From assembly GCF_000353285.1 (NCBI RefSeq), contig NZ_KB731324.1, positions 5,288,577 to 5,352,576 on the forward strand: a stretch of DNA of 64,000 bases. Direction: 5' to 3'. Below the pieces are notes generated by a model, which did not search any database, was not told the origin of the DNA, and saw only the letters and a program-made list of their open reading frames with translations. Origin of the DNA: Leptolyngbya boryana PCC 6306. GTDB taxonomy: Bacteria; Cyanobacteriota; Cyanobacteriia; Leptolyngbyales; Leptolyngbyaceae. A program made the position numbers and the translations under genes. Positions 42,133-61,636 of the stretch are shown piece after piece (the stretch's first letter is position 1; every line of letters begins with the position of its first letter).

Positions 42133-43269
42133 ATGAATGAAATCAATCTTGGCGATCGCGTTGTTATCCAACGACAGAATTTACAAAGCCTCTTTGCTGC
42201 GCTTCAGCAATTGGGATATGAGCTAATTGCGCCTACCATTCGGGAAGCAGCAATTGTTTACGATGCAGTGTCTTCTGTTGAGGATTTGCCGATTGGATGG
42301 ACTGATGAACAATCCGGAGGAACCTATCGCCTCAAGCGACGCGAGGATCAGGCGTTGTTTGGCTATGCCGTGGGCGCGCATTCGTGGAAAAAATATTTGT
42401 TTGCACCCCAGGTTCGACTTTGGCAAGCAGAGCGTAAAGGGCAAGAGATAACGATCCGTGCAGACCCGCCAGACACAACAAAGCGCGCTTTTATTGGTGT
42501 GCGATCGTGTGATCTTCATGCGATCGCGATTCAGGATCAAGTCTTTCTGCATGGAGAAGCAGTTGATCCGCACTATCAATCCCGTCGCCACGATAATTTT
42601 GTGATTGCGGTGAACTGTGGACAGGCAGGGAGAACCTGTTTCTGTGTGTCCATGCAAACGGGACCCGAAGCTACGAGCGGATTTGATTTGGCATTAACGG
42701 AGGTACTCAATCCGACGCATTACTTTGTTGTCGAGATTGGTAGTGAAGCGGGGCGAGACATGCTTCAAGCTGTGCCTCATACGATCGCAACGCCAAATGA
42801 TCAGGAGATTGCTCAACAGATTGTTGCAGAAACGGCGCAACACATGGGACGCACGATGCCAACTGAGGGCATTAAAGAATTGCTCTACGACAATCTAGAA
42901 CATCCCCGATGGAATGACGTTGCTTCGCGATGTCTCACCTGTGCGAACTGTACGATGGTCTGTCCGACTTGCTTTTGCTCGACAGTCGAAGATACGACTG
43001 ATTTAACAGGCGATCATGCTGAGCGCTGGCGACAGTGGGATTCCTGTTTCACAATGGATTTTTCTTACCTGCATGGTGGCAGTGTGCGCGTCAGTACAAA
43101 ATCTCGCTATCGCCAATGGATGACCCACAAATTAGCTTCGTGGATTGATCAATTTGGCACGTCGGGTTGTGTGGGGTGTGGACGATGTATTACTTGGTGC
43201 CCCGTTGGGATTGACATTACGGAAGAAGTCAAAGCGATTCGAGACAGTCAGGAGGTCAAACACGAATGA
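42133..43269 (+). CDS. hydB: Hydrogenase beta subunit, bacterial ferredoxin-type (sulfhydrogenase HydB-like)
   Basis: This 378-residue protein is the iron-sulfur electron-transfer subunit of group 3b-like [NiFe] hydrogenases. The C-terminal third contains two [4Fe-4S] motifs, [16 protein letters not shown] and [15 protein letters not shown] conserved N-terminal block ([18 protein letters not shown]) and [14 protein letters not shown] are typical of the family. It should pass electrons between the flavin subunit and the catalytic dimer, in the cytoplasm. Its stop overlaps the start of the next gene by four bases. GAGGGG lies upstream of the ATG. Confidence 0.88.
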
Positions 43270-43739
43270 TGACGAACTTGGCACCGTTGTTAAAAGAACA
43301 TGCTTTTTTTGAGGGGTTGAAGCCTGAGTATATTGAACTCTTGGTTGAGTGTGCGTCTAATGTTCGGTTTGAGGCAAATCAACTGATTTTCCGACAAGGG
43401 GAAAATGCCGATCGCTTTTATCTGATTCGACAAGGCAAGGTCGCAGTCGAGATTAGCACCCCTGGACAATCTGCGATCGTGATTAAAACCTTGATGGAAC
43501 ATGATGTTATGGGTTGGTCTTGGCTATTTCCGCCTTACCGCTGGCAATTTGATGCTCGGGCGATGGAGCTAACTCGGGCGATCGCACTTGATGGTCGATG
43601 CCTGCGAGGGAAATGTGAGTCTGATCCGGTACTCGGTTACGAACTGATGAAACGCTTCTCAGCGATTATGCTCGAAACATTACAAGCGACTCGCCTCCAA
43701 TTGCTCGATCTCTACAATGTGCCGAGTCGGAGGGCGTAA
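43266..43739 (+). CDS. Cyclic-nucleotide-binding-domain protein without a DNA-binding domain
   Basis: This 157-residue protein has a cAMP-receptor-type beta-barrel (ANQLIFRQGENADRFYLIRQ, VAVEISTPGQ) and a terminal helix, and stops there with no helix-turn-helix, so it is not a transcription factor. It overlaps its neighbours on both sides (ATGA and TAATG), lying between the beta and gamma hydrogenase genes, which strongly suggests a subunit or regulator of the enzyme. The phosphate-binding cassette is degenerate: the expected R-A of PRxAxV is not clear, so ligand binding is uncertain. Confidence 0.85.
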   Translation: MMTNLAPLLKEHAFFEGLKPEYIELLVECASNVRFEANQLIFRQGENADRFYLIRQGKVAVEISTPGQSAIVIKTLMEHDVMGWSWLFPPYRWQFDARAMELTRAIALDGRCLRGKCESDPVLGYELMKRFSAIMLETLQATRLQLLDLYNVPSRRA

Positions 43740-44569
43740 TGATCCTAGAACCGATGCAGCCTCACATCTACCGAGTACGGCAAACGCGGAAAGAAACCCA
43801 TGACACCTTCACAATGGAGCTAGAACCTGCGCAAGGGAATCAACCGTTTTACTTTGCGCCAGGTCAATTCAACATGCTCTATGCTTTTGGGACTGGAGAA
43901 TGTGCAATCTCTATTAGTGGGAATCCTACTGAGCCAAACAAACTCTTACACACGACTCGGATCGTGGGTAATGTGACGACTGCATTGAGTAAATTGCGGC
44001 CGGGTGATTCGATGGGCATTCGAGGTCCATTTGGCAAGGGATGGGATTTGCAAGCCGCAGAAGGCAATGATGTGGTGTTTGTTGCTGGAGGGATTGGATT
44101 AGCTCCCTTACGTCCTGCGATCGCTTACGTGTTGGCGAATCGAGCTAAGTATGGCAAAGTCGTGATTTTGATTGGAACACGCACGCCCCAAGATATTCTA
44201 TTTCGGCATGATTTGAAGCAGTGGCGATCGCGTCTTGATTTAGAAGTTTTTGTCACGGTCGATCGGGCTGAACCGGGTTGGCAAGGCAATGTAGGAGTCG
44301 TAACTGCTTTGATTCGACGTGCGCCTTTTGATCGACTGAACACAGTTGCAATGATTTGCGGCCCCGAAATTATGATGCAGTTTACCGTGATGGAATTGCT
44401 CAAACGAGGGGTGAGTCCAGAGAGCATCTACATCACGATGGAACGCAATATGAAATGCGCGATCGGGTTCTGCGGACATTGCCAGCTAGGGCCGACCTTC
44501 ATCTGTAAAAATGGCCCCGTATTTCGCTATGACCACATCAAATTCTGGTTTGACCAGCGGGAGTTTTAG
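43739..44569 (+). CDS. hydG: Hydrogenase gamma subunit, FAD/NAD(P)-binding (sulfhydrogenase HydG-like)
   Basis: This 276-residue flavoprotein of the ferredoxin-reductase/PyrK superfamily has an FAD-binding barrel ([15 protein letters not shown]), a nucleotide-binding domain ([20 protein letters not shown], then [20 protein letters not shown]) and a C-terminal [2Fe-2S] motif, [17 protein letters not shown]. It should oxidise or reduce NAD(P)(H) and exchange electrons with the beta subunit. NADP specificity is known for characterised group 3b enzymes but cannot be read here. The ATG overlaps the stop of the cyclic-nucleotide gene. Confidence 0.88.
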
Positions 44570-44573
44570 AGTA

Positions 44574-45353
44574 ATGAAACAGCTACATAAGCCGAAACTT
44601 GCTGTTTGGAAATTTGCGTCCTGTGATGGGTGTCAATTGAGCTTGCTCGATTGCGAAGATGAATTGCTAACTGTGGCAGGAGAGATTGAGATTGCCAATT
44701 TTATGGAAGCTTCTAGTGCAGTTGTCAAAGGTCCTTATGATTTGTCGCTAGTTGAAGGTTCGATCACCACTCCTCACGATGCAGAGCGAATTCATCAAGT
44801 CAGGCGGGCTTCAAAACGACTTGTGACAATTGGTGCTTGTGCAACTTCTGGGGGCATTCAAGCGCTCCGAAATTTCAAAGATGTCAAAGCCTTTACTTCG
44901 ATTGTTTACGCTAAGCCAGAGTACATTGAAACTCTGAATAAATCGACTGCGATCGCAGATCATGTGTTCGTTGATTTTGAACTTCGAGGCTGTCCGATTA
45001 ACAAGCATCAATTGCTAGAAGTGATAAGTGCTTTTTTGAGCGATCGTAAACCTGTCATTCCTACTTACAGCGTGTGTATCGAATGCAAGCGTCGCGGAAA
45101 TGTCTGTGTGATGGTTGCCCACGGAACGCCTTGTATGGGGCCTGTGACGCAGGCGGGATGTAATGCGCTTTGTCCGGCGTACAATCGAGGGTGCTATGGC
45201 TGTTACGGTCCGATGGAAAGCCCGAATACGGCTGCATTGAGCCAATGGTGGAAGCAGTTAGGAGTGGACGAAACAGATCTGGTTCGGGCATATCGCACGT
45301 TTAATGCCTATGCAGAAGCCTTTCGCAAAGAGAGTGAGCGTCATGAGCAGTAA
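44574..45353 (+). CDS. hydD: [NiFe] hydrogenase small subunit (sulfhydrogenase HydD-like)
   Basis: This 259-residue subunit carries the electron-relay clusters next to the active site. The proximal cluster cysteines are in [24 protein letters not shown] and [11 protein letters not shown]. Additional clusters are suggested by [20 protein letters not shown] and the C-terminal [11 protein letters not shown]. There is no Tat signal, so the enzyme is cytosolic, as in group 3. The start at 44574 follows the previous stop by four bases; a longer frame from 44511 would overlap. The 3' end overlaps the large-subunit start by 11 bases. Confidence 0.9.
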
Positions 45354-46632
45354 AACGATCAAAGTCGATTATCTCGCTCGCGTAGAAGGTGAGGGTGCGA
45401 TGTATGTGAAGATCCGCGATCGTAAAGTGCAAGATGTGCAGCTTAAAATCTTTGAACCTCCTCGATTTTTTGAAGCATTTTTACGCGGACGGCAATACAG
45501 CGAAGCTCCTGATATCACGGCTCGAATTTGTGGCATTTGTCCGATCGCGTACATGATGAGTTCGATTCATGCAATGGAAAATATCTTGGGCATTGACGTC
45601 GAAGGTGGATTGCGCGCACTCCGGCGATTGATTTACTGCGGCGAATGGATCGAAAGTCATAGTTTGCATATTTTCATGCTGCACGCGCCGGATTTTCTGG
45701 GTTACGAGAGTGCCATTCACATGGCAAAGGACTATCCGGAGCTTGTGCAGCGGGGCTTAAGACTGAAGAAAATTGGCAATCGAATTCTAGCTTTGATTGG
45801 TGGGCGAGAAATTCATCCGATTAACATTCGAGTAGGTGGATTTTATAAGCTACCGACTCGGCAGGAACTACGATCGCTGATTGATGATTTGCAATGGGCG
45901 TGTGATACAGCAGAAGAAACTGCACGATGGGCAGCAACCTTATCCTTTCCTGAGTTTGAGCAAGACTATGAATTCGTTGCGCTTCATCATCCGAATGAAT
46001 ATCCAATGAATCAAGGACGAATCATTTCTAACAAAGGATTAGATATTTCAAATGATCAGTTTTATGAATACATTGAAGAACAGCATAAGCCTCATTCCAC
46101 TGCTTTACATGCCATCATCAAAGAGCGTGGAGATTATCTCGTAGGTCCGATCGCACGATTTAATCTCAATTGTGACCAACTCACCCCCCGCGCTCAAGCG
46201 ATCGCGCGTGAAGTCGGGCTGCTTCCTATCTGTCGCAATCCATTTCAAAGTATTGTGGTTCGCAGTATTGAAGTACTATTTGCTGTGGAAGAAGCCTTGC
46301 GGTTAATTGAAACGTATGAAATGCCCGATCGAGCAGTAGTTGATTACAAGATTCAAGCAGGAGTTGGGCATGGCTGTACAGAAGCGCCCCGCGGAATTCT
46401 CTATCATCGCTACAAGATTGATGAAAAAGGCGATATTCTTGATGCCAAGATTGCACCACCGACTTCGCAAAATCAAGGCAGGATTGAACATGATCTGTGG
46501 CAATTTGTAGAGCAACAGATCGATTTAGCAGATGATCAATTACGATCGCAGTGTGAACAGCTGATCCGAAACTACGATCCTTGTATTTCCTGTTCAACGC
46601 ATTTCTTGAAGTTAGATGTCGATCGAGCCTAA
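45343..46632 (+). CDS. hydA: [NiFe] hydrogenase large subunit (sulfhydrogenase HydA-like)
   Basis: This 429-residue catalytic subunit has both nickel-ligand pairs: [20 protein letters not shown] near the N-terminus and [11 protein letters not shown] near the C-terminus. After the conserved His there remain only nine residues (FLKLDVDRA), the peptide removed by the maturation protease encoded next. The segments [11 protein letters not shown]-like and [16 protein letters not shown] match group 3b enzymes. It catalyses reversible H2 oxidation. The ATG at 45343 overlaps the small-subunit stop; an in-frame start at 45304 is less likely. Confidence 0.92.
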
Positions 46633-46636
46633 CCCA

Positions 46637-47098
46637 ATGCAAAATACGATGCTGATTGGTGTGGGAAATGAATTTCGACACGATGATGCGGTCGGATTAA
46701 TGATTCTAAGAAAACTTCGCAATCAGCTTCCAGAAACGATTTCAACGATTGAAGCATCGGGCGAGGGAACAACATTAATCGAGTTGTGGCAAACCAGCGA
46801 TACCGTTTATCTATTTGATGCTGTGTCTTCGGGTTCTGAAATTGCTACGATTCATCGCATTGATGTTCATACTCAATCGATTCCATCGCAATTTTTCCAC
46901 TATTCCTCTCATGCGTTTGGAGTAGCAGAAGCGGTTGAACTTGCTCGATCGTTGAATCAACTTCCAAACAAACTCATTCTCTATGGGGTAGAAGGAAGTA
47001 ACTTTGCAATTGGGATCGGACTGTCAGAAGCAGTCGAGCAAGCTATAGAAACTGCGATTCAACAAGTGTTATCAGAATTGGAGATCAACCATGCATGA
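46637..47098 (+). CDS. Hydrogenase maturation endopeptidase (HybD/HyhD family)
   Basis: This 153-residue protease cleaves the C-terminal extension of the large subunit after nickel insertion. The family motif IGVGNEFRHDDAVGLMI gives the conserved Asp pair, and FHYSSHAFGVAEAVELARSL holds the other nickel-sensing region. It starts five bases after the large-subunit stop. An ATG at 46616 in the overlap is possible, but the family usually begins near MLIGVGN. It is expected to be specific to the hydrogenase encoded upstream. Confidence 0.87.
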   Translation: MQNTMLIGVGNEFRHDDAVGLMILRKLRNQLPETISTIEASGEGTTLIELWQTSDTVYLFDAVSSGSEIATIHRIDVHTQSIPSQFFHYSSHAFGVAEAVELARSLNQLPNKLILYGVEGSNFAIGIGLSEAVEQAIETAIQQVLSELEINHA

Positions 47099-47372
47099 GG
47101 CAAGTTTGATGAGCCATTTAATTCAAACGATTGAAGCGATCGCTCAAGAACAAAACGCGACGAAAATACTTGCTGTTAAAGTTCGATTGGGTGCTTTGTC
47201 TCATTTCTCACCTGAACATTTCACCTATCATTTTGTGATTGCCTCGCGACATACACTGATGGAAGGCGCACGATTGGAAATCGAAACCTCAGATGATTTG
47301 ACTGATCCGATCGCACAAGACGTTGTTTTAGAAAGCTTAGATATGGAAATCAACGAAGCATTGCAAAGCTAA
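47091..47372 (+). CDS. hypA: HypA-like nickel chaperone lacking the zinc-finger
   Basis: This 93-residue protein has the HypA N-terminus MHEASLMSHLIQTIEAIAQE, including His2 of the nickel site, followed by KVRLGALSHFSPEHFTYHF. It then ends with the acidic stretch IETSDDLTDPIAQDVVLESL, with no CxxC pairs. Classical HypA is about 115 residues and carries a four-cysteine zinc site. It overlaps the previous gene by eight bases. The lack of a zinc site, and of a HypB gene anywhere in the operon, suggests a modified nickel insertion route. Confidence 0.8.
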   Translation: MHEASLMSHLIQTIEAIAQEQNATKILAVKVRLGALSHFSPEHFTYHFVIASRHTLMEGARLEIETSDDLTDPIAQDVVLESLDMEINEALQS

Positions 47373-47393
47373 TTCCTCATAGTTTTCTCAAAA

Positions 47394-49685
47394 ATGAACG
47401 ATAAAAATGATTTAGAACGATTGCGAATTCAGATTCGAGGTGCAGTTCAAGGGGTTGGATTTCGCCCATTTGTCTATCGTCTTGCTACAAATTTAGGCAT
47501 GGTTGGATGGATTAAAAACTCAGCAGAGGGAGTCTGGATCGAAATAGAAGGAACGCGATCGCAGCTTGACCTTTTTCTGCTCAAACTAGAACAAGAAAAG
47601 CCTGTCCATAGCCTGATTCAACAATTACAAGCCTCTTCGCTCGTTCCACTGGATGAATCTGATTTTGAAATCTATCCGAGTGTGAGTGGAGAAAAAACGA
47701 CGATTGTTCTTCCTGACCTTGCTACTTGCTCAGACTGTATCCGAGAACTCTTTGATCCGAACAATCCTCGCTATCGCTACCCATTCATTAACTGCACTCA
47801 TTGTGGTCCGCGCTTTAGTATTATCAATGCTTTGCCCTACGATCGACCCAACACCAGCATGAATGCGTTTCAGATGTGCGATCGCTGTCGAACCGAATAC
47901 GAAAATCCGCTCGATCGTCGATTTCATGCTCAACCCATTGCTTGTCCAGAATGTGGTCCTCGGTTGGAATGGTGGGATCATCACGGCAAACGACTAGCAT
48001 CCGATGAAGCGGCGCTACAAGCAGCAATCCAAGCGATTCAGAACGGACAAATCATTGCAGTCAAAGGGTTAGGTGGATTTCATTTCATGGTGGATGCTCG
48101 GAATTCAGATGCGATCTCGACTCTACGACAGCGAAAACATCGACCTGATAAACCCTGTGCAGTCATGTATCCTTCGCTAGCAGCAGTTCAAAAAGACTGT
48201 GAGCTTTCTGACTTAGAAGCTCAACTACTCACTGCTTCAGAAGCCCCAATCGTTCTACTTCGTCGTAAAGCAAATATTAGCGTTCTTGAAAGGGTTGCAC
48301 CGAATAATGCTTACCTTGGTGTTTTACTTCCATACACGCCGCTGCATCATTTGTTACTATCCGCGTTAAATTTTCCAATTGTTGCAACGAGTGGCAACTT
48401 ATCGAATGAGCCGATTTGTATAGATGAGCGGGAAGCGATTCAGCGTTTATCAGGAATTGCAGATGCGTTTCTAGTTCACAATCGTCCCATTGTTCGTGCT
48501 GTTGATGATTCGATTGTGCGAGTGATTGCCGATCGCGAAATGATTCTGCGTCGATCGCGGGGGTATGCTCCGTTACCTATTGCGCTCTCCAAGCCTGTGC
48601 CAACCTGTTTAGCGGTTGGAGGACATCTTAAAAATACGATCGCACTGACAATTGATTCCAATCTCTTTGTCAGTCAACATATCGGAGATTTGGAAAATCA
48701 AGCTACCCTAAAAGCCTTCAAGCAAGCGATCGACACCTTTGAGCAACTTTATGAGGTTCATCCTGATCTCATTGCTTGTGATGACCATCCTGACTATCTT
48801 TCAACTCAGTACGCTCAGCACCGAAGCTCGAAATTTCCATCCAGTCAAATCTTTCCGGTTCAACATCATCATGCTCACATTGCTGCCTGTATGGCTGAGA
48901 ACGGACTAGAGGAAACGGTGTTGGGCGTGGCGTGGGATGGCACAGGCTATGGACTCGATGGGACAATCTGGGGTGGAGAATTTTTCTTAGCGAATCTGAC
49001 CGATTTTCAACGGGTAGGACACTTCAAACCTTTTAGACTACCGGGAGGTGAGAAAGCAATTCGAGAACCTCGCAGAGCCGCGATCGCAGTACTTTACGAA
49101 CTGTGGGGAGAAGCCGCATTCGATCGAACAGATTTAACCCCTGTTCAAGCATTCAATGCCCAGGAGCGCGACATTCTACAAGCCATGCTCCAGAAGGAAC
49201 TCAACACACCTTGGACTTCGAGCGCAGGACGGCTCTTTGATGCAATCTCAGCTTTACTTAACTTAGTGCAAATTTCAACGTTTGAAGGACAAGCAGCAAT
49301 GGCGTTGGAATTCGCGTTAGAGCATATCTCAACGGATGAATTTTATCCGTCTGTCATTCATCAGGGCATTTTCGATTGGTCTACGATGGTTGAGGAAATC
49401 ATTGCAGACATCGAACAAAAAACATCAGGTGCAATGGTTTCTGCAAAGTTTCATAACACAATGGTCGAAGTCATTCTTCAGTTTGCGCGACAATGGAAGC
49501 AAAAGCGCGTTGTCTTGTCTGGAGGATGTTTTCAAAATCGGTACTTCAGCGATCGCACGATTGCCCGTCTCCAAGCAGAAGGCTTCCAACCTTACTGGCA
49601 TCGGCATATTCCACCCAACGATGGCGGCATTGCTGTTGGACAAGCAATCATTGCTGCATCCCAACTATTAAAGCGTGGCGGTTAA
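47394..49685 (+). CDS. hypF: Carbamoyltransferase HypF
   Basis: This 763-residue enzyme makes the CN ligands of the NiFe active site, using carbamoyl phosphate and ATP to carbamoylate HypE. Domains: acylphosphatase (residues about 8-95, RGAVQGVGFRPFVYRLA), two zinc-finger CxxC pairs around 110-185 (ATCSDCIRELF, NCTHCGPRFS, MCDRCRTEYE, IACPECGPRLE), YrdC-like (about 200-380) and Kae1-like (from about 400, with QHHHAHIAACMAENG). All domains are intact and the length is normal. It is 21 bases after hypA. Confidence 0.95.
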   Translation: MNDKNDLERLRIQIRGAVQGVGFRPFVYRLATNLGMVGWIKNSAEGVWIEIEGTRSQLDLFLLKLEQEKPVHSLIQQLQASSLVPLDESDFEIYPSVSGEKTTIVLPDLATCSDCIRELFDPNNPRYRYPFINCTHCGPRFSIINALPYDRPNTSMNAFQMCDRCRTEYENPLDRRFHAQPIACPECGPRLEWWDHHGKRLASDEAALQAAIQAIQNGQIIAVKGLGGFHFMVDARNSDAISTLRQRKHRPDKPCAVMYPSLAAVQKDCELSDLEAQLLTASEAPIVLLRRKANISVLERVAPNNAYLGVLLPYTPLHHLLLSALNFPIVATSGNLSNEPICIDEREAIQRLSGIADAFLVHNRPIVRAVDDSIVRVIADREMILRRSRGYAPLPIALSKPVPTCLAVGGHLKNTIALTIDSNLFVSQHIGDLENQATLKAFKQAIDTFEQLYEVHPDLIACDDHPDYLSTQYAQHRSSKFPSSQIFPVQHHHAHIAACMAENGLEETVLGVAWDGTGYGLDGTIWGGEFFLANLTDFQRVGHFKPFRLPGGEKAIREPRRAAIAVLYELWGEAAFDRTDLTPVQAFNAQERDILQAMLQKELNTPWTSSAGRLFDAISALLNLVQISTFEGQAAMALEFALEHISTDEFYPSVIHQGIFDWSTMVEEIIADIEQKTSGAMVSAKFHNTMVEVILQFARQWKQKRVVLSGGCFQNRYFSDRTIARLQAEGFQPYWHRHIPPNDGGIAVGQAIIAASQLLKRGG

Positions 49686-49687
49686 GT

Positions 49688-49933
49688 ATGTGTTTAGCGA
49701 TTCCAGGAAAAATTCTCAGCATTGAGGGTGATGATCCATTGTTGCGAACGGGTCGAGTTAGCTTTGGTGGAATTGTGAAAGAAGTAAACTTAGCCTTTGT
49801 GCCAGATGTCCAGATTGGAGACTATGTGATTGTTCATGCGGGTATTGCGATTAATCAACTCGATACTGCGGTTGCAACCCAATTTTTTGAACACTTAAAT
49901 CAACTGCGTGACACTCCAGCAGAATTGCCATGA
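49688..49933 (+). CDS. hypC: Hydrogenase assembly chaperone HypC
   Basis: This 81-residue protein begins [16 protein letters not shown], with the essential Cys2 that carries the Fe(CN)2CO unit, then [20 protein letters not shown] and [16 protein letters not shown]. It forms complexes with HypD and the hydrogenase precursor. The start at 49688 is fixed by the conserved MC; the longer frame is a reading-frame accident over hypF. Its stop overlaps hypD (ATGA). Confidence 0.95.
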
Positions 49934-51021
49934 AATATATTGACGAATATCGAACCGCTGAGCTTGCTCAACGCTACACTCAAGCTATAGATCGCATCAC
50001 GACGCGACCGTGGACAATCATGGAAATCTGCGGCGGACAAACTCACACCATTGTTAAATTTGGCATTGATCAACTGCTACCTCGATCGATCACGCTGATT
50101 CATGGTCCAGGATGTCCCGTTTGTGTCACATCTGCTGAATTAATTGATCAAGCTTGTGCGATCGCGGCACTTTCTGATGTCATTTTCTGCTCGTTTGGTG
50201 ACATGCTCCGAGTTCCAGGGAGTCAATACGATTTACTCACGGTGAAAGCTTTGGGAGGAGATGTGCGAATGGTTTATTCGCCGCTGGATGCACTCAACCT
50301 TGCTCAAGCGAATCCCGATCGACAAGTTGTATTTTTTGCGGTTGGCTTTGAAACGACGGCTCCAGCAACCGCGATCGCAGTTCATCAAGCTAAGCAACAA
50401 AACATTCAGAATTTTTCACTGCTAGTCGCTCATGTCTTAGTTCCTCCCGCGCTCGAATTACTGCTCTCCTCGCCAGAACACAATATTGATGGACTGTTAG
50501 CCGCAGGGCATGTTTGTACAGTGATGGGGTACAAAGACTATGAGCCGATCGCTCAAAAGTATCATATTCCGATTGTCGTGACTGGATTCGAGCCTGCTGA
50601 CATTTTGCAGGGTGTTTATCTCTGTGTTCAGCAATTAGAGGCAGGACAAACAAGGGTCGAAAATCAGTATGCTCGTGCAGTTCAGCGATCAGGTAATCAA
50701 ATTGCACAACAACTGATGCGAGACGTGTTTACTGTCGTTCCTCGTGACTGGAGAGGAATTGGTACGATCGCTCAAAGCGGCTTAGGACTCCGAAATCAAT
50801 ATGCCGAATTTGATGCAAGTCTTCGATTTCAAGTCTCAGCACAGACATCTCAGTCAGAACAATCTGACTGTATCAGTGGTCTGATTTTGCAAGGAATTCG
50901 GAAACCGCAGGAATGTGCTGCCTTTGGAACACGCTGTACACCTGAACATCCTTTGGGCGCACCTATGGTTTCTTCCGAAGGAGCGTGTGCAGCTTACTAT
51001 TACGCAAGGAGAATGCTATGA
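49930..51021 (+). CDS. hypD: Hydrogenase maturation protein HypD
   Basis: This 363-residue iron-sulfur scaffold assembles the Fe(CN)2CO moiety with HypC and HypE. Motifs: [48 protein letters not shown] and the C-terminal [20 protein letters not shown] with the [4Fe-4S] cysteines. The length is normal. It shares four bases with hypC and with the next small gene. Confidence 0.95.
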
Positions 51022-51200
51022 AAAATCACACTGAACTGAAGCAAATTGCCAGTCAAATTCTGTCTGGAATGCTGGCAAATCCGCATATTTATGCCACGGT
51101 TAGCGATGAAGAAGGGCGCGGACAACAAGAGCAAATTTTGATTCTTACTGCGATCGAGATGGCAGAAAAATTAATCGAAAAGGTAGAAGATCGTGAGTAG
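51018..51200 (+). CDS. Small unknown protein between hypD and hypE
   Basis: This 60-residue protein starts at the ATG inside the ATGA overlap with the hypD stop and ends overlapping hypE. It is almost entirely helical and charged: [20 protein letters not shown], then [21 protein letters not shown] do not recognise a family. Its tight overlaps on both sides make it a credible gene. The position suggests a helper in maturation, but no function is shown. Confidence 0.65.
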
Positions 51201-52239
51201 TCCTAATTCTCGATCGTGTCCTATGCCGATGCAAAAGTTTTCTCAAATTCTGCTCGCGCATGGCGGAGGAGGACAACTTACGCATCAATTAATTGAGCAA
51301 TTGTTTATTCCGACCTTTGAAAATACTGCACTGTCTTGTCGCCATGATGGTGCAGTCTTAGATGTCCATCATGCTCAAATCGCATTTACAACAGATTCTT
51401 ATGTCGTTCAGCCGCTCTGTTTTCCGGGTGGCAATATCGGGACATTAGCAGTCAATGGAACCGTCAATGACGTAGCAATGTGTGGCGCACGTCCGCTTTA
51501 TCTGAGTGCTGGATTTATCTTAGAAGAAGGCTTCTCCATGCCTCTATTGCAAGACATCGTAGACTCAATGCAGCAAGCTGCTCAGACTGCCAAGGTTCAA
51601 ATCGTGACCGGAGACACAAAAGTTGTCGATCGAGGTCGCGGGGATGGATTATTCATCAATACAGCCGGAATTGGAATCATTGAACATGCTTGCAAGATTG
51701 CGCCACAACAAATTCAAGTAGGGGATGTGGTCATCATCAATGGCGATATCGGTCGGCATGGCATAGCGATTATGGCAATGCGAGAAGGATTGAGATTCGA
51801 GAGTGCGATCGAGAGTGACTGTGCCGCTTTAATCGATCCAGTGTTCGCTTTACTTGATGCAGAAATTTCTGTGCATTGTTTGCGAGATTTAACCCGAGGA
51901 GGATTAGCTAGTGCCTTAATTGAGCTTTCTGAAGGAGCAGCCATGCAGATTCAACTCGATGAAGCTGCAATTCCTATCCGCGACGAAGTGCAAGGCGCAT
52001 GTGAAATTTTAGGCTTAGATCCGCTATATGTGGCAAACGAAGGACGCTTTGTCGCTTTTGTTGCGCCCCAAGATGCTGAGCGCGCGATCGCGCTGCTAGA
52101 ACAACATTCTCCTCATAATCCTCGGATTGTGGGGCATGTTATTCAATCAAATTCTTCCGCTGTGATTTTGAAAAACAAACTCGGAGTAGAACGCATGATC
52201 ACACGACTGAGTGGAGAGCAGTTACCTAGAATTTGCTAA
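51193..52239 (+). CDS. hypE: Hydrogenase maturation carbamoyl-dehydratase HypE
   Basis: This 348-residue enzyme dehydrates a carbamoylated C-terminal cysteine to thiocyanate, supplying CN to the active site. ILLAHGGGGQLTHQLI starts the ATP-binding region, followed by AFTTDSYVVQPLCFPGGNIG, VTGDTKVVDRGRGDG and RDLTRGGLASALIELSE. The C-terminus PRIC gives the catalytic terminal cysteine. The GTG at 51193 has an AAGG-type site upstream; ATGs at 51223 or 51229 are alternatives. It closes the hyp operon; the next sequence is the second repeat element. Confidence 0.94.
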   Translation: MSSPNSRSCPMPMQKFSQILLAHGGGGQLTHQLIEQLFIPTFENTALSCRHDGAVLDVHHAQIAFTTDSYVVQPLCFPGGNIGTLAVNGTVNDVAMCGARPLYLSAGFILEEGFSMPLLQDIVDSMQQAAQTAKVQIVTGDTKVVDRGRGDGLFINTAGIGIIEHACKIAPQQIQVGDVVIINGDIGRHGIAIMAMREGLRFESAIESDCAALIDPVFALLDAEISVHCLRDLTRGGLASALIELSEGAAMQIQLDEAAIPIRDEVQGACEILGLDPLYVANEGRFVAFVAPQDAERAIALLEQHSPHNPRIVGHVIQSNSSAVILKNKLGVERMITRLSGEQLPRIC

Positions 52240-52546: not shown

Positions 52547-52610
52547 AATCAGAACGGTCTTCTCTCTTTAGAACATTGTGAAGCCATTTATAAACTGTAG
52601 GAACAATATC

Positions 52611-53219
52611 ATGACCCTTGGTGAATCTTCTTACATGATTTCACGCTCGATCACAGTTCAGGAACTCCTCGATCGCTATGCGGCAGGAGAACGTAATTTC
52701 AGTGATGTTGTTCTAGAACAGGCTGATCTCAGTGGTTTGTCTTTGGGTGGCATCAATTTGGGACGATCGCACCTGAAAGGCGCAAAATTAACTGATACCT
52801 CTTTGAGTGGAGCTAATTTGAATGAAGTCGATTTGAGTGGAGCCAATCTCGATCGTGCTAATTTATTTGGCGCATTTCTGAGTGGTGCTAATTTGAATAA
52901 CGCAACGCTCAAAGCGACCAACTTGACCGATGCGGATTTAAGTGGAGCATCCTTAGTGGAAGCTGATTTGAGTGATGCGCTGTTACATGGAATTTGCCTT
53001 GCTGAGGCAAATTTACAGAGTGCCAAATTGACGGGAAGTAAAATGTGTGGGGCAAGGCTCTGGAAAGCAGATTTGCGAGGTGCAAATTTGTATGGTGCAG
53101 ATTTGTGTGATGCGAATTTGTGTGAAGCAAATCTACAGGACGCAAACTTGAATGCAACTGATACGAGTGAAGCTTCACTGACCAGAACAGTCATGCCCCA
53201 GGGCGAAATTCATGAATAG
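52611..53219 (+). CDS. Pentapeptide-repeat protein
   Basis: This 202-residue protein consists, after a short N-terminal segment (SITVQELLDRYAAGERNFSD), of about 30 A(D/N)Lxx pentapeptides (LSGANLNEVDLSGANLDRAN), predicted to form a right-handed quadrilateral beta-helix. The fold serves as a protein-interaction or DNA-mimic surface; no enzyme motif is seen. A ribosome-binding site AGGAA precedes the ATG at 52611; a GTG at 52578 is less likely. It lies under promoter module D, so it may belong to the island's regulon. Role unknown. Confidence 0.8.
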   Translation: MTLGESSYMISRSITVQELLDRYAAGERNFSDVVLEQADLSGLSLGGINLGRSHLKGAKLTDTSLSGANLNEVDLSGANLDRANLFGAFLSGANLNNATLKATNLTDADLSGASLVEADLSDALLHGICLAEANLQSAKLTGSKMCGARLWKADLRGANLYGADLCDANLCEANLQDANLNATDTSEASLTRTVMPQGEIHE

Positions 53220-53905: not shown

Positions 53906-55657
53906 ATGGGCTGGAGTCCAATCGAGAAATCATTCAAAAATTGGCGAGTCAAACCTAATTTACAAAACTATGAAGAAACGCGCCGTATATTTTCTTGGGC
54001 AGAAATCGACGCTGAACTCAAAGCAACCATTGAGGGATTGAATATTGCCGATATTGCAGTCGATCGTCATGCCAAAAGCGATCGAGCCGATCACATTGCC
54101 CTGCGCTTTCTAAGAAAGAACTGGGATGTTCAAGATTTTACTTATCGCGATCTCGCTCTACAAACCAATCAATTCGCGAATGTTCTCAAAACTCTAGGAG
54201 TTGGGAAAGGCGATCGCGTCTTTGCTCTCACAGGACGGATTCCATCTCTCTATATTGCTGCTCTTGGTACATTGAAAAATGGCAGTGTGATTTGTCCACT
54301 TTTCTCTGCTTTTGGTCCAGAACCGATTTATCAACGCATGAACCGAGGAGATGCCAAAGTCTTAGTGACAACTACCGCACTCTACCAACAGAAAGTCGTG
54401 GCATTGCGCGATCGATTGCCGAAATTACAGCACATTCTTTTAGCAGATAGTGCAGATCATTTAGAAGACGGAATTTGGTCGCTGCCCAAACTGATGCAAG
54501 CGGCTACTTCTGAGTTTGAGATCGTAAGCACTCAACCAGAAGATATGGCATTGCTGCACTTCACGAGTGGCACAACTGGAATGCCCAAGGGGGCGATTCA
54601 TGTTCACAAAGCCGTTTATGCTCATTACATGACGGCAAAATATGTGCTCGATTTGCATCCTGATGATATTTTTTGGTGTACGGCTGATCCAGGTTGGGTG
54701 ACTGGAACGTCCTACGGGATCATTGCACCGCTGACTCATGGCGTGACGAGTATCATTGATGAAGCAGAGTTTGATGCCGATCGCTGGTATCGCATTCTCG
54801 AAACTCAAAAAGTAACCGTCTGGTACACCGCTCCGACGGCGATTCGGCGATTGATGCGCCTCGATATTGACCCGAAAGCCGAATATGATTTGAGCCATCT
54901 GCGACTCGTGCATAGTGTGGGAGAACCGCTGAATCCCGAAGCAGTCGTTTGGGGTCAGGAGAAGCTAGGCTTACCGATTCACGATAACTGGTGGCAAACC
55001 GAAACAGGTGGCATCATGATTGCTAACTATGCCACGATGCAGATTCGTCCAGGTTCGATGGGTCGTCCTATTCCTGGGGTAGAAGCCGCGATCGTTCGAC
55101 GGCATGAAGACGGCACGATCGAACAAATTGACCAACCGGGCATTGATGGAGACTTAGCTCTAAAACCCGATTTTCCTTCGATCTTTCGCGGCTATCTGCA
55201 TGATGAAGAACGCTACCGCAAATGTTTTGTTGGAGATTGGTACATCACAGGCGACTTAGCCATGCGCGATCGCGATGGCTACTTCTGGTTTATGGGACGC
55301 GAAGACGACATCATCAAAACTTCGGGACACATGGTTAGTCCCTTTGAGGTCGAAAGTGCATTGATGGAGCATCCAGCGGTAGCGGAAGCGGGCGTGATTG
55401 GTAAACCTAATCCGATGATTGGTGAGCTAGTCAAAGCCTTTGTTGCCCTCAAACCAGGGCGAGAACCTAGTGAAGCGCTCAAACTAGAACTTTTGGGATT
55501 TGCTCGACAAAAACTAGGAGCCGCTGTAGCTCCAAAAGAATTGGAATTTCAAGAATCATTGCCCAAAACTCGAAGCGGTAAGATTATGCGGCGATTGCTG
55601 AAAGCGCGTGAATTAGGGTTACCCGAAGGCGATCTATCGACATTGGAGACGAACTGA
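53906..55657 (+). CDS. AMP-forming acetyl/acyl-CoA synthetase
   Basis: This 583-residue enzyme of the ANL superfamily activates acetate or a short acyl group with ATP and CoA. The P-loop is [20 protein letters not shown], the adenylate site [16 protein letters not shown], the hinge [20 protein letters not shown] and the C-terminal lysine motif [17 protein letters not shown]. The length is nearer the Bacillus AcsA type (about 570) than the 650-residue Acs. It heads an operon with the PDH genes; the E1-alpha ATG overlaps its stop. It may scavenge acetate or run in reverse, but this is not shown. Confidence 0.87.
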
Positions 55658-56667
55658 TGAAGAAGAAACATGCAACGATACAATCTCCTACTGCTGTTGA
55701 TTCCAATCAAGCACATTTGCACGATCTTCTTTATCAAATGCTGCGGATTCGTCGCTTTGAAGATAAGTGTGCAGAACTCTACAGCGCCATGAAAATTCGC
55801 GGTTTTTTGCATCTGTACAACGGCGAAGAAGCCGTTGCGGTGGGAGTTATGCAAGTCTTAAAACCTGATGATGCGATCGTGGCAACCTATCGCGAACATG
55901 GTCAAGCCCTAGCACGCGGAATTCCCATGAATACAGTGATGGCAGAGATGTTTGGTAAGCAAGAGGGCTGTTGTCGGGGGCGTGGAGGATCGATGCATTT
56001 ATTTGATAAAGAGCATGGCTTCTATGGAGGTAACGCGATCGTAGGTGGTGGTTTACCCTTAGCGGTTGGGCTGGCTTTAGCCGATAAGAAATTGGGCAGA
56101 AAACGGCTCACCTGCTGTTTTTTTGGCGACGGTGCTGTTGCTGAAGGAGAGTTTCACGAATCTATGAATTTAGCGTCTCTCTGGCAAGTCCCGATATTGT
56201 TCGTTTGTGAGAATAATCAGTATGCAATGGGAACGGCTCTGAAGTATTCTCACTCAGTCACAAATCTGGTTCAGAAAGCAGAAAGCTATGGCATCGGTCA
56301 TGCAGTTGTGGATGGCATGGATGTTCTAGCAGTAGAGCAAGCTGCTCAAAAAGCAGTGGTTGAAGTCCGGGAAAACGGAAAGCCCTTCTTTCTAGAATGT
56401 GTCACCTATCGTTTCCGAGCGCACTCGATGTTTGACCCAGAACTCTACCGAGATAAAGCCGAAGTCGAAGAATGGAAACAACGCTGTCCCATCTCAACAC
56501 TCACGCAACAGTTAAAAGCACAAGGACAGATCACAGATGCTGATGTGGAAAGGATAGAACAATCGATCCGTCAAGAGATCAAAGATGCGATCGCATTTGC
56601 GGAAGCGGGAACTTGGGAACCTGTGGAAGAATTAAATCGCTTTGTCTACTCAGAGCCAAACGCCTAG
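55657..56667 (+). CDS. pdhA: Pyruvate (or branched-chain/acetoin) dehydrogenase E1 alpha
   Basis: This 336-residue E1 subunit binds thiamine diphosphate and decarboxylates the oxo-acid. The TPP motif is [20 protein letters not shown] ending in NNQYAMGT, and [12 protein letters not shown]-type sequence appears as [18 protein letters not shown]. The phosphorylation-loop-like [17 protein letters not shown] follows. It overlaps the upstream synthetase by one base (TGATG). The set of E1-alpha, E1-beta and E2 in one operon differs from the dispersed housekeeping PDH genes reported for many cyanobacteria, so this may be a second complex. Confidence 0.88.
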
Positions 56668-56676
56668 GGGGACACT

Positions 56677-57702
56677 ATGAACTATGGAATTGACACCCAT
56701 ACAGACAATCCACCGCTGATGATTCAGACAACCTATCGAGAAGCACTGCGAGACGCAATCCGAGAGGCAATTCTGAAAGACGATCGCGTGTTCCTGATGG
56801 GCGAAGATGTCGGACAGTATGGCGGTGCTTTTGGGGTGACGAAAGGACTGTTGAAAGAATTGGGTGCCGACAAGATCATGGACACGCCGCTGTGTGAGTC
56901 TGGGTTTACCGGAGCCGGAATTGGCGCAGCACTGAACGGAATGCGCCCGATCGTAGAAGTGATGACGGTTAACTTTAGCTTGTTGGCTGCCGATCAAATT
57001 CTCAATACAGCAGCAACCTATCTGCATATGTCCGGCGGTTTGTTCAATGTTCCGCTCGTGATTCGCATGGGAACCGGAGGAGGCAAACAACTAGCAGCAC
57101 AACACTCTCATAGTTTAGAAGGATGGTATGCTCACATTCCTGGAATTAAAGTTCTGACTCCAGCAGTGCTTGAAGATGCCCGTGGAATGCTTTGGACAGC
57201 ACTGGAAGATCCCGATCCCGTCCTGATTTTTGAGAATACGTTGCTCTACAACATGGAAGGGGAACTTCCAGCAAATGCGGGAGCAGTAGATATCGATCGT
57301 GCCTGTATTCGTCGAATTGGGCATGACGTAACGCTCATTAGCTACAGTGCCAGTTTATTCAAAGCACTCGAAGCCGCAGAAACCCTAGCTCAAGAAGGAA
57401 TCGAAGCAGAAGTGATTGATTTACGGGTTCTGCGTCTACTTGATGAGGCTACGTTTCTCACCTCGATCGCGAAAACGCATCGAGCCGTGATTATTGATGA
57501 AGGTTGGCGCAGTGGCAGCATTTCTGCGGAGATTAGCGCTCGCATTATGGAAAAAGCATTCTATGACTTAGATGCCCCTGTAGAACGGATTTGCTCAGCC
57601 GAAGTTCCCGTGCCCTATGCCAATCATTTAGAACAAGCTGCTTTGCCTCAATCTGCCACGATCGTCAATACAGTCCGGAGGATGGTGACTCGACATGGCT
57701 GA
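56677..57702 (+). CDS. pdhB: Pyruvate dehydrogenase E1 beta
   Basis: This 341-residue subunit forms the alpha2beta2 E1 with the previous gene. Markers: [60 protein letters not shown] and [20 protein letters not shown]. Slightly longer than housekeeping homologs (about 327) because of a short N-terminal extension (residues 1-14). Its end overlaps the E2 start by eight bases. Confidence 0.9.
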
Positions 57703-58900
57703 ATTTCGTATGCCCAGTTTAGGGGCGGATATGAGAACCGGAACCTTAGTCGCCTGGAGAGCCAAACCCGGCGATCATCTCAAGTACGGTGACATTATTG
57801 CAGATGTGGAAACCGATAAAGGCATCATGGAAATTGAGGTCTTTGAAAACTGTACTGTTGAGGAACTACTGCTGGAACCGGATACTAAAGTGCCCGTGGG
57901 AACGCCAATGGCGAGATTGAAATTAGAAAACGGTGCGGAAAAAGAAGCGATCGCGGTCACCGATCGTGAACAACCTAGCCCACCTCCTACAATCGAAGCT
58001 CCGACGATTCCAGTACCCACTCTTGCTAAAGAGGAACGATTGCGCGTTTCGCCGCTAGCTCGCAAGGTAGCGACTGAACTGGGTGTGGACTTAACTCAGG
58101 TGAAAGGAACTGGAGCCGATGGTGCGATTCATCAAATTGATGTAGAAGAAGCTGCAAAAGCTCTGAAACCAACACCGAAGCCAGAAGAAAAAGTTATCCC
58201 TCCATCGCCTGAAGCGAAACCGACTACAACTGATTTTCAGGCAGGAATGCGACGTGCGATCGCGGCTGCCATGTCCCGCTCTAATCGCGAGATTCCTCAC
58301 TACTATCTCGAAACTCGGATCGATATGAGCCATGCACTGAAATGGCTTGAAGCAGAGAATCAGAAGCGATCGATAAAAGAGCGTATCTTACCTGTCGTTC
58401 TGCTGATCAAAGCAGTCGCTAAAGCATTAACTGACGTTCCAGAATTGAATGGATATTGGATTGAAGATCAGCTTAAAGTCCAAGAAGCAATTCATATCGG
58501 CTTTGCGATTTCCCTACGGCAAGGAGGGCTAGTTACGCCTGCGATTCATCATGCGGATCTGAAAAGCCTCGATGAATTGATGGCGACCATGCGCGACTTG
58601 ATTGAGCGTACGCGAGGAGGACATCTCCGTAGCTCAGAACTGTCTGATGCAACGATGACACTAACAAGCTTGGGAGATATCGGTGTCGAAAAAGTCTACG
58701 GGGTGATCTATCCACCCCAAGTTGCTTTGGTCGGTTTCGGCAAAATCTCTGAACAGCCTTGGGCAGAACAAGGAATGCTCGATGTTCGTCCGGTACTAGT
58801 TGCAACGCTAGCAGGGGATCATCGCGCAACGGATGGCATGATTGGTGCAAGATTCTTGCAAGCGGTCAACACACATCTTCAATCAGTAGAGAAATGGTAA
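57695..58900 (+). CDS. pdhC: Dihydrolipoamide acetyltransferase (PDH E2)
   Basis: This 401-residue E2 has one lipoyl domain ([20 protein letters not shown], lipoylated Lys), a proline-rich linker, a peripheral-subunit-binding domain ([20 protein letters not shown], then [17 protein letters not shown]), a second linker and the acetyltransferase domain, whose catalytic site is [20 protein letters not shown]. It builds the complex core and carries acetyl to CoA. No E3 (dihydrolipoamide dehydrogenase) gene follows, so a housekeeping E3 must serve it. Confidence 0.92.
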
Positions 58901-59902: not shown

Positions 59903-61636
59903 TTAATGGAAACCGCGTCCCAAATGCGGGAAGTGGGCGAGGTGCTTTGGATGACGAGTGGGAGCAATTTCTGGCGGCTTTGCTACAGTGGGTTGAGATG
60001 GAAAAGCACCCGGTTGCCTGAGATCTGTAATCAGTTGGTCAATGAGCTGAGTCGTGACATGCGCCATGATGAAAATGTGATTGTAGGCTCGCTTTTGCCC
60101 ATTCACAAATAGCGTTTCACTAGATAGCGAGTACTTGAAAATAATATTGGGATTCGCTTGCTTAAACCGAATCGTCAGCGAGAGTGGTGTCCGTTCCACC
60201 CACAAAGATTCACCCAAGTGCTGCTCTAGCTCCTTGAGCTTTTGAACAGCATATTCCGCCATCTTTTCGGTATACAGGGCTTTTTCTATCTCGCCTTCAT
60301 AGGAGGTTTTCGCCAAGTAGTCCCATAAAATCATCGCCGATAAACCATTGCGTGACCCGGCAAAGGTGGTATCAGGAGAACCGATATACTCTGGATTATC
60401 CGGTGGACGCAACTGATATTTTGTTTTCGTCATATAGATGCCGCAGGGACAAGGTGCCCCGATCCACTTATGTCCACTCATTGCGATCGAATGCACAAAT
60501 GGTAATCGGAAATCAAAATTCGGTCCGCGTTGAGCAATTTTTTCAGCATTGTATGCCATCTCCACAAAGGGCATATATGCTGCTCCTAAAGCACCATCTA
60601 CATGAAACCAGTATCCAGTGCGAAGATCAAATTGATTCGGATCGCTCGGGTCGTAGTAAACTTTGCGTTCATGCAGTCCATAGCGCTGAAAGATCGGCAT
60701 CAGTGCTTTTCCTGCTGCTTCTACATCGTCATAAGCGCCTTTGAAAGTGGTGCCATAGTTGAAACAGATTAAGATGGGATACCCCTTGGCTGCAAAAAAC
60801 TCGACGAGCTTTACTAGCGAGGGAATATCGATCGAGCCTGGTCCTGTACTGCCTTGCGTGGATGGTACTTCTTTCGACCACGGCTGACCCGGTGCTAGAG
60901 GGTTCTCGTTGGGATAGTAGTGCTGCCCTATTTGATAAAATGTATGAAGTCCGAGGACAATGCCCGCTTTGATAATCGAGTAGTGAGTATCTTCGGAGTA
61001 AAACACAACAGGGGTATAAGCATGAGGCTGTCCATCTAGCGGCAATGCCTGTTTGTAAATGAGGCGGCGAAGTAGAGATCGAGGATGTCCCCCAAAACTG
61101 GCGACCCTCGCTTCTTCTTCAGCCGTGTGTTCTTCTAGGAGGAGCTTGCCTGCTAAATAATCGCGTGCATTCCATAACCCATAGAGATTGCCTTCAGTGC
61201 ATCCCATGCTGACTACATATCCCCAGTAAGACTCTCCATCGGCGGGATTATGAGGTAAGCGAGCATTCCACACCCGAGCATAGTAATCGAGTACAGCCCG
61301 CTCCATCCATTTACTATGAATCGTAAGATTCCCATCGATAAAGGGATCGCCCACGTTATTGACGTGATAGTTTAGATAGGGCTTGAGATCATCTTCGTAA
61401 TCCAACTGCTGATTGACTTGGTATCCGAGGAAATTCGCCTTCTGGATAGATAAGTATTCGTGTAATTGAGCGAGTGCTTGAGCACGTTGTTCCTCGGTTA
61501 AACCTGTTGAGGATAGTTGAAAATCTTCGATCGTAATATTCCTAAGCGATGGATAGGCTGAAGATGAGTGATGGATAGGCATCGACGCGTTTGAGTGACT
61601 ATCCTGATTCCTAAAATGATTCGCATCACGATTCAT
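59903..61636 (-). CDS. PLP-dependent group II (histidine-decarboxylase-like) decarboxylase
   Basis: This 577-residue enzyme of the aminotransferase-fold decarboxylase family has the PLP lysine at about residue 390 in SIAMSGHKWIGAPCPCGIYM and the cofactor Asp in YWFHVDGALGAAYMPF. Upstream are YVVSMGCTEGNLYGLWNARD, which matches the substrate-binding serine/glycine region, and VFYSEDTHYSIIKAGIVLG. Related proteins decarboxylate histidine, glutamate or aromatic amino acids; the residues seen do not decide which. A GABA or amine product could aid acid or low-oxygen survival, by inference. The upstream ribosome-binding site is AGGAGG. Confidence 0.8.
   Translation of the reverse strand: MNRDANHFRNQDSHSNASMPIHHSSSAYPSLRNITIEDFQLSSTGLTEEQRAQALAQLHEYLSIQKANFLGYQVNQQLDYEDDLKPYLNYHVNNVGDPFIDGNLTIHSKWMERAVLDYYARVWNARLPHNPADGESYWGYVVSMGCTEGNLYGLWNARDYLAGKLLLEEHTAEEEARVASFGGHPRSLLRRLIYKQALPLDGQPHAYTPVVFYSEDTHYSIIKAGIVLGLHTFYQIGQHYYPNENPLAPGQPWSKEVPSTQGSTGPGSIDIPSLVKLVEFFAAKGYPILICFNYGTTFKGAYDDVEAAGKALMPIFQRYGLHERKVYYDPSDPNQFDLRTGYWFHVDGALGAAYMPFVEMAYNAEKIAQRGPNFDFRLPFVHSIAMSGHKWIGAPCPCGIYMTKTKYQLRPPDNPEYIGSPDTTFAGSRNGLSAMILWDYLAKTSYEGEIEKALYTEKMAEYAVQKLKELEQHLGESLWVERTPLSLTIRFKQANPNIIFKYSLSSETLFVNGQKRAYNHIFIMAHVTTQLIDQLITDLRQPGAFPSQPTVAKPPEIAPTRHPKHLAHFPHLGRGFH

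Follow-up and report, generated by a model that had tools for sequence, protein, structure and literature searches.

A window of 64,000 nucleotides from the cyanobacterium Leptolyngbya boryana PCC 6306 (contig NZ_KB731324.1, positions 5,288,577 to 5,352,576) contains a run of 11 open genes on the plus strand (window positions 42133-52239), identified from the list of open reading frames (ORFs) and from profile searches. Judged from sequence, these genes very probably form a complete operon for a cytoplasmic [NiFe]-hydrogenase of group 3b, the only [NiFe]-hydrogenase found in this genome, and the enzyme would work as proposed below, including a delivery of nickel that does not involve HypB. An earlier note on this DNA had placed HydB, HydG, HydD, HydA, a protease and HypA, F, C, D and E in one plus-strand run, and all of these genes are indeed present and open. 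The genes had been named correctly, but a gene for a protein with a cyclic nucleotide monophosphate (cNMP)-binding domain and the shortness of HypA had been overlooked. Of the near-complete maturation set described there, the protease and HypA-F-C-D-E were recovered, with HypA in a short form and HypB absent from the operon.

Class and completeness of the hydrogenase

Searches with NCBIfam hidden Markov models ranked ShyA and HydA (288.3 and 258.8 bits) above FrhA and VhuA (140.5 and 138.3 bits) for the large subunit. When HydA was compared as a single sequence with the PDB, sulfhydrogenase 1 was matched with 236 bits over 419 residues, followed by MvhA (188 bits), other NiFe large subunits (161 and 150 bits) and a NAD-reducing hydrogenase (132 bits), and chains of sulfhydrogenase 1 were the best match for all four subunits HydB, HydG, HydD and HydA. 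The sulfhydrogenase 1 of PDB entry 9nez, which we take to be that of Pyrococcus furiosus, resembles the L. boryana enzyme in its four homologous subunits and falls into a common tree clade with it. The L. boryana operon differs in that it adds the cNMP-domain gene and a maturation cassette, which lacks HypB.

For phylogenetic analysis, relatives were taken from a scan of named genomes, which yielded at least 529 confirmed relatives out of at least 584 candidate stretches; the best 80 loci were analyzed. Throughout, G000 denotes the genome of the window itself, other G numbers other genomes, and L numbers loci of relatives. In a careful HydA tree of 77 rows (LG+G4; 57 of the best 80 loci used), the 3b clade including sulfhydrogenase 1 (PfSHI) was recovered with support values of 98/94, and bacterial and cyanobacterial 3b sequences grouped with 100/99; in this tree the bootstrap was unsettled, and long branches were seen for sulfhydrogenase 1, for the single row of group 1 and for two pieces of HupL. 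Sampling comprised one group 3c row (MvhA), one group 1 row and no 3a row. A quick tree also showed very long PfSHI branches. What speaks against a straightforward assignment is that the ShyA and HydA scores fall short of their equivalog cut-offs of 700 and 880 bits, although these delimit particular equivalogs and not group 3b, and such sub-threshold scores mark the enzyme, as far as its sequence goes, as a distant member of 3b. Taken together, hidden Markov models, PDB matches and tree support the assignment of HydBGDA of L. boryana to the group 3b [NiFe]-hydrogenases, as the earlier note had done.

Conservation of metal ligands was evaluated in 65 homologues of HydB, 75 of HydG, 80 of HydD, 81 of HydA and 27 of HypE, where cysteine residues were assigned by us as ligands of Fe-S clusters or of the NiFe site. 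All 15 cysteines of HydB (≥0.97), C240, C245, C248 and C256 of HydG (≥0.99) and all 13 cysteines of HydD (≥0.95) were conserved. In HydA, which carries the Ni-Fe ligands C63/C66 and C414/C417 and a C-terminal extension beyond H420, the four ligand cysteines and H420 were invariant (1.00), as was C348 of HypE (1.00). The earlier statement that all cluster and NiFe ligands are in place therefore holds, with the cysteines present and at least 95% conserved among homologues of the four subunits, and the observation of this gene set with its ligands is far beyond chance.

The genome (7,262,454 bases, 5 contigs, 99.99% complete) was searched for further [NiFe] large subunits and, among five candidates scored, only HydA of the operon qualified; nifD is present. 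Over 12 kb, contig C3 of this genome matches plasmids of L. boryana NIES-2135 and IU 594 with 100% identity. With only one large subunit found in so complete a genome, the idea of a third hydrogenase has to be given up for this organism. The earlier note had also set the 3b arrangement apart from the hydrogenases usually described in cyanobacteria; however, 3b homologues in cyanobacteria, L. boryana PCC 6306 included, are already in print according to the accessible part of PMC5186783. The accessible text of PMC4675709, which mentions 5 scaffolds, states that PCC 6306 encodes no known hydrogenase, and that of PMC5186783 that this strain has 3b genes with hypAB only and is hence unable to build the enzyme. 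Both statements, as they appear there, are contradicted by the sequence because the 3b operon is intact, with hypF, hypC, hypD and hypE above their cut-offs, and hypB is the gene that was not found. The species is one that PMC5186783 lists, but in our sequence hypFCDE belong to the operon and no hypB was detected.

Compact HypA and a proposed nickel delivery without HypB

The HypA protein of the operon comprises 93 amino acids and matches PF01155 at profile positions 1-67 of 112 only (56.4 bits; cut-off 28.9), and it stays below the cut-off of TIGR00100 (53.4 versus 88.1 bits). Its sequence contains no CxxC motif, and so the CxxC...CxxC zinc finger is lacking, while the N-terminal MHE and the nickel-domain fold are found. 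From its sequence, it is a compact HypA variant and not a canonical HypA. With the window protein as query, a HypA-like ORF was detected at 30 of the loci (the best 80 plus the G183 locus), with CxxC pairs only in L096. The window protein and 26 compact forms from other loci, all with 86-94 amino acids, align over 94 columns. A frameshift as cause of the short HypA was rejected, as the frame is clean and 26 compact forms of similar length occur elsewhere.

An AlphaFold2 model built from the alignment of the 27 sequences reached a mean predicted local distance difference test (pLDDT) score of 90.6. In comparisons with VIA-align, the model superimposed on 3a43_B (Z 13.2, root mean square deviation 2.1, 90 residues) and on Helicobacter pylori HypA (6g81; Z 12.4), with other folds following from Z 8.4. 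The aligned ranges span the first to the last residues of the HypA chains, which argues that, in the model, the zinc domain is excised and the final strand of the nickel domain retained. The compact form therefore has the nickel-domain fold and the MHE start in common with canonical HypA (3a43 and 6g81) but differs from it in the absence of the zinc finger, in the frequent presence of H38, H43 and H47, and in a serine at position 40. H38 and H43 each occur in 25 of 27 compact sequences, H47 in 26 and Ser40 in 26. Among 18 full-length rows (17 distinct), H43 does not occur, and L169 is the only row with H47 and carries H38 as well; position 40 is V in 8, E in 4 and D in 3 of these. Rows were collected from 29 loci for the compact form, of which L091, L113 and L144 had no start recognized by the pattern and were dropped and L085 (two frames) was left out, and from 25 loci for the full-length form, with none found by pattern in L151, L152, L158, L160, L161, L164 and L172 and with L096 being the L156 protein. 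As an MHE-like start was demanded by the search pattern, there is some circularity in finding H2 and E3 invariant in both sets.

All 27 compact proteins matched general HypA models of NCBIfam and no separate model appeared, and an earlier description of a HypA without zinc finger was not found in the open-licence literature. The full-length HypA of L169 (G422) has the zinc-finger cysteines together with H38 and H47, and its genome gave no HypB match; judged by its sequence, it is a possible intermediate between the two forms.

HypB was not found in the operon, and no protein above the cut-off was detected in the genome, where the best match to TIGR00073 (74.8 versus 121.2 bits) is UreG, itself recognized by TIGR00101 with 355.9 bits. 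HypB, HypA and large subunits were surveyed in 52 genomes (50 of the best 80 loci, G000 and G183). HypB scored above the cut-off in 18 of them, all with a full-length HypA, so that it was present in none of 25 genomes with only compact HypA and in 18 of 25 with full-length HypA. In the latter set the HypA match reaches into the zinc-domain part, four of the 25 hold a compact HypA as well, and two matches are without their beginning, setting in at profile position 18 in G437 and at 54 in G423. G420 and G409, the latter with a compact HypA broken up between two frames, had neither a HypA profile match nor HypB. For the association of HypA form with HypB, Fisher p is 5.3e-8 when kinship is ignored. 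When kinship was considered on the HydA tree (46 rows with both traits), five well-supported pairs were obtained, of which on average 4.7 agreed and none was opposed.

According to the accessible part of the review PMC7055735, His98 and the MHE motif of HypA form a nanomolar nickel site in the HypA-HypB complex, and Asp40 has been suggested as a ligand in the H. pylori protein. Compared with canonical HypA, the compact form lacks anything corresponding to the His98 region and has a serine at position 40 in 26 of 27 cases, and H38, H43 and H47 are the obvious candidates for putative replacements of the His98 and Asp40 ligands. Tentatively, and with somewhat less than even confidence, we propose that compact HypA might be a self-sufficient nickel inserter in which a putative histidine cluster (H2/H38/H43/H47) provides a built-in high-affinity site, in place of the one that canonical HypA makes only together with HypB and a histidine of its C-terminal part, and that it could define a HypB-independent branch of [NiFe] maturation which occurs across many phyla with the 3b cassette and is the only one found in L. 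boryana. This reading is weakened because H38 is missing from all three dropped rows and H2 from one of them, and because the invariance of H2 is built into the pattern. In particular, L091 has H43 and H47 but not H38, L113 and L144 have H47 only, and L144 carries arginine instead of histidine at position 2; with these rows included the counts become 25/30 for H38, 26/30 for H43 and 29/30 for H47.

Several further points weigh against a HypB-free nickel step. The 50 loci were hand-picked, comprising all 28 with compact HypA and 22 others, and nearly all compared genomes are contig-level assemblies or metagenome-assembled genomes of unknown completeness. Seven of 25 genomes with full-length HypA also lack a HypB match, and the kinship-aware test, though pointing in the same direction, is not significant (median p 0.0625). 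Also, the genome may encode a MinD-like HypB of the archaeal type.

Another way to dispense with HypB would be its replacement by UreG, a urease GTPase whose gene lies at another place in the genome, with compact HypA as no more than its partner. The accessible text of PMC7285500 already notes that hypB is missing from the 3b cassette and proposes UreG as a stand-in, arguing from a urease-positive Nitrosococcus strain, and UreG is present in L. boryana too. However, of 14 genomes with a HydA relative 11 have no HypB above the cut-off, and a match at the UreG level was seen in only one of these 11 (G390, 73.2 bits), whereas the other two genomes with such a match (G183 and G392) also have HypB; UreG was named by its own model only in G000 and elsewhere was inferred from the score. 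Because UreG-level matches are confined to one of 11 HypB-less genomes, UreG was rejected as a general substitute for HypB. It may, by its presence in the genome, act for HypB in L. boryana itself, but overall we consider this explanation unlikely.

The published statements that only hypAB are present or that no hydrogenase exists (PMC5186783 and PMC4675709, accessible parts) imply that L. boryana holds only a non-functional remnant of the operon, and a HypA devoid of its zinc domain together with an unfound HypB would fit such a decay. Against this, all 11 frames are open, the ligands are conserved, HypF, C, D and E score above cut-offs within the operon, and compact HypA is conserved across 27 aligned sequences and is therefore no decay product of this genome. 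We regard a relic as improbable and retain the view of a complete operon.

That the operon encodes a group 3d (Hox) or 2a (Hup) enzyme can practically be dismissed since, although HoxH-size matches at 29-40% identity are among those listed for many genomes of the class, the tree parts HydA from 10 HoxH rows (99/97) and joins it to PfSHI, and the gene set is HydBGDA and not HoxEFUYH. The HoxH of Cupriavidus necator is annotated as such; the other nine were named by size and similarity and cluster with it. The large-subunit phylogeny suggested in the earlier note thus places the protein inside 3b and apart from 3d HoxH, while the comparison with 2a rested on two HupL-like pieces of one Calothrix gene, a weak representation of that group. 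These pieces (L148 and L149) lie on two contigs of Calothrix rhizosoleniae (G388), a split that would be as expected if a hupL excision element interrupts the gene.

Gene order, distribution and surroundings

Positions and supporting matches of the operon genes are listed in Table 1. Adjacent genes overlap or are at most 4 bases apart when 44574 is taken as the HydD start, with two exceptions, namely 21 bases before HypF and 171 bases before the start of the HypE ORF. HypE probably starts at the ATG at 51223 or 51229. By its tight spacing on one strand, the arrangement looks like an operon. A promoter-like site was considered and rejected, as none was found on the plus strand at the operon start and the region holds 4 such sites compared with a mean of 15.2 in shuffled sequences.

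Table 1. Genes of the group 3b hydrogenase operon in the L. boryana window.
Product	Window position	Strand	Supporting evidence
HydB-like beta subunit, 378 aa, 4Fe-4S dicluster protein	42133..43269	+	NF040829 ShyB 5.5e-45; NF040833 HydB 9.9e-43; PDB 9nez_B 3.1e-36
cNMP-binding-domain protein, 157 aa	43266..43739	+	PF00027 2.3e-14; between HydB and HydG
HydG-like gamma subunit, NAD(P)-binding and DHODB-type Fe-S domains	43739..44569	+	NF006220 1.3e-64; NF040830 ShyC 5.2e-54; PF00175, PF10418; PDB 9nez_C 1e-49
HydD-like delta (small) subunit; ORF opens 44511, likely start 44574	44574..45353	+	NF040831 ShyD 3.8e-51; PDB 9e15_A 3.2e-42, 9nez_A 3.7e-42
HydA-like alpha (large) subunit; ORF opens 45304	45343..46632	+	NF040828 ShyA 9.2e-86; PDB 9nez_D 5.8e-69; tree
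Hydrogenase maturation protease	46616..47098	+	TIGR00072 4e-32, over cut-off
Compact HypA, 93 aa, M1-H2-E3 and H38, H43, H47	47091..47372	+	PF01155 over 1-67 of 112 only
HypF carbamoyltransferase	47394..49685	+	TIGR00143 3.1e-268, over cut-off
HypC chaperone	49682..49933	+	TIGR00074 1.2e-19, over cut-off
HypD	49930..51021	+	TIGR00075 3.1e-154, over cut-off
HypE, C-terminal PRIC	51193..52239	+	TIGR02124 2.5e-132 from residue 18, over cut-off

The cNMP-domain protein shares 18% identity (pairwise E 5e-7) with a cNMP-domain protein encoded near hoxH on pHG1 of C. necator. In the accessible part of PMC12319191, the name HoxI is used for such a gene within a 3b cluster and a role in NADP binding is cited; by analogy, such a role is a putative one for the L. 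boryana protein and a lead only.

The search of cyanobacterial genomes for 3b relatives, also proposed in the earlier note, detected a close HydA relative (≥74% identity) in 2 of 388 genomes of the class, our own and G183, corresponding to 2 of 42 in the order (the same 42 genomes as the family) and 1 of 8 in the genus. Any HydA match at 1e-10 was obtained in 129 of 388 class genomes, the others listed having at most 40% identity. Among the best 80 of the at least 529 relatives there is one cyanobacterium (C. rhizosoleniae, 72%), accompanied by Planctomycetota, Bipolaricaulota, Nitrospinota, Acidobacteriota, Chloroflexota, Pseudomonadota and others at 61-70%. In these 80 loci the order HydB, cNMP, HydG, HydD, HydA is kept wherever all five genes occur (63/63), and the order HydA-protease-HypA-F-C-D-E within 9.5 kb in 16 of 18 loci with all seven.

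Plasmid-borne relatives at 49-59% were encountered in Paraburkholderia, Burkholderia, Pandoraea, Rhodococcus and Streptomyces, and the annotation of the Paraburkholderia copy includes protease and HypA besides the five core genes. On plasmid pOLGA1 of Paraburkholderia phytofirmans (L144, 5769-11112), a TniB-family gene lies about 3 kb from the 3b core genes and stress-protein genes are nearby. The G183 locus (L047, 10955-14699) is a partial relative in which HydD and HydA are followed by an inserted gene and then by protease and compact HypA; HydB, the cNMP gene, HydG and hypFCDE were not seen in the 37.9 kb read, the rest of G183 being unsearched for HydB and HydG. A bacterial 3b cassette with the hyp order A-F-C-D-E, lacking hypB in some cases, is described for Nitrospina, Nitrosococcus oceani AFC132 and others in the accessible part of PMC7285500. 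Group 3b and the hypAFCDE order are common to that cassette and ours, but there the structural genes lie downstream of hypAFCDE and in L. boryana upstream, and compact HypA goes unmentioned in that part of the paper.

Because the distribution is patchy and the same gene order occurs in many phyla, the sequence data suggest horizontal transfer of the operon, as the earlier note had thought possible. A single clade (98/83) unites the three cyanobacterial HydA sequences in the careful tree, next to 59 sampled bacterial rows, and in the quick tree they lie among bacterial rows. In 2-kb bins, the G+C content is 0.432-0.487 over the operon and 0.445-0.509 elsewhere in the window. The lowest value of any bin is that of 46001-48000, which was not taken as evidence; recent transfer shown by base composition was rejected, as the G+C content is not clearly odd.

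Directly after the operon (52578-53219), the window encodes a pentapeptide-repeat protein resembling HetL (122.1 bits; cut-off 260). Further downstream (53906-58900), a gene for an acetate-CoA ligase follows and then clustered genes for pyruvate dehydrogenase E1 alpha, E1 beta and E2, of which E2 scores below its cut-off. At 1e-150 the ligase has no match in 7 other genomes of the genus, and 53906-58900 is possibly a species-specific block with a link to fermentation. On the minus strand (59903-61636), a sequence resembling histidine decarboxylase is found in two stretches (224.5 bits; cut-off 305).

Proposed function and significance

Hydrogenases of the 3b family activate H2 reversibly and couple this reaction to NAD(P)(H) via Fe-S clusters and a flavin. 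In L. boryana, HydD-HydA would interconvert H2 and protons, and electrons would pass through the Fe-S clusters of HydB and the flavin of HydG, which has the NAD-binding domain PF00175, to or from NAD(P)(H). For maturation, HypF, HypE, HypC and HypD would assemble the Fe(CN)2CO group, nickel would be delivered by compact HypA without HypB, and the protease of the operon would then close the site. L. boryana is a nitrogen fixer in micro-oxic surroundings, and the accessible text of PMC4675709 presents it as hydrogenase-free. Under micro-oxic conditions, the enzyme could dispose of surplus NAD(P)H by releasing H2, or recapture the H2 that the cell's own nitrogenase gives off. The part in dark fermentation that the earlier note assigned to it is a putative one.

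With respect to what was known, two things merit attention: that the operon is complete, contrary to two statements in print, and that nickel insertion would proceed through a compact HypA and without HypB. Compact HypA offers a small system for asking which parts of nickel insertion are dispensable. A complete sole hydrogenase alters the reading of H2 metabolism and redox balance in L. boryana, and a single knockout in this organism would be a test of the role of 3b enzymes in an oxygenic phototroph.

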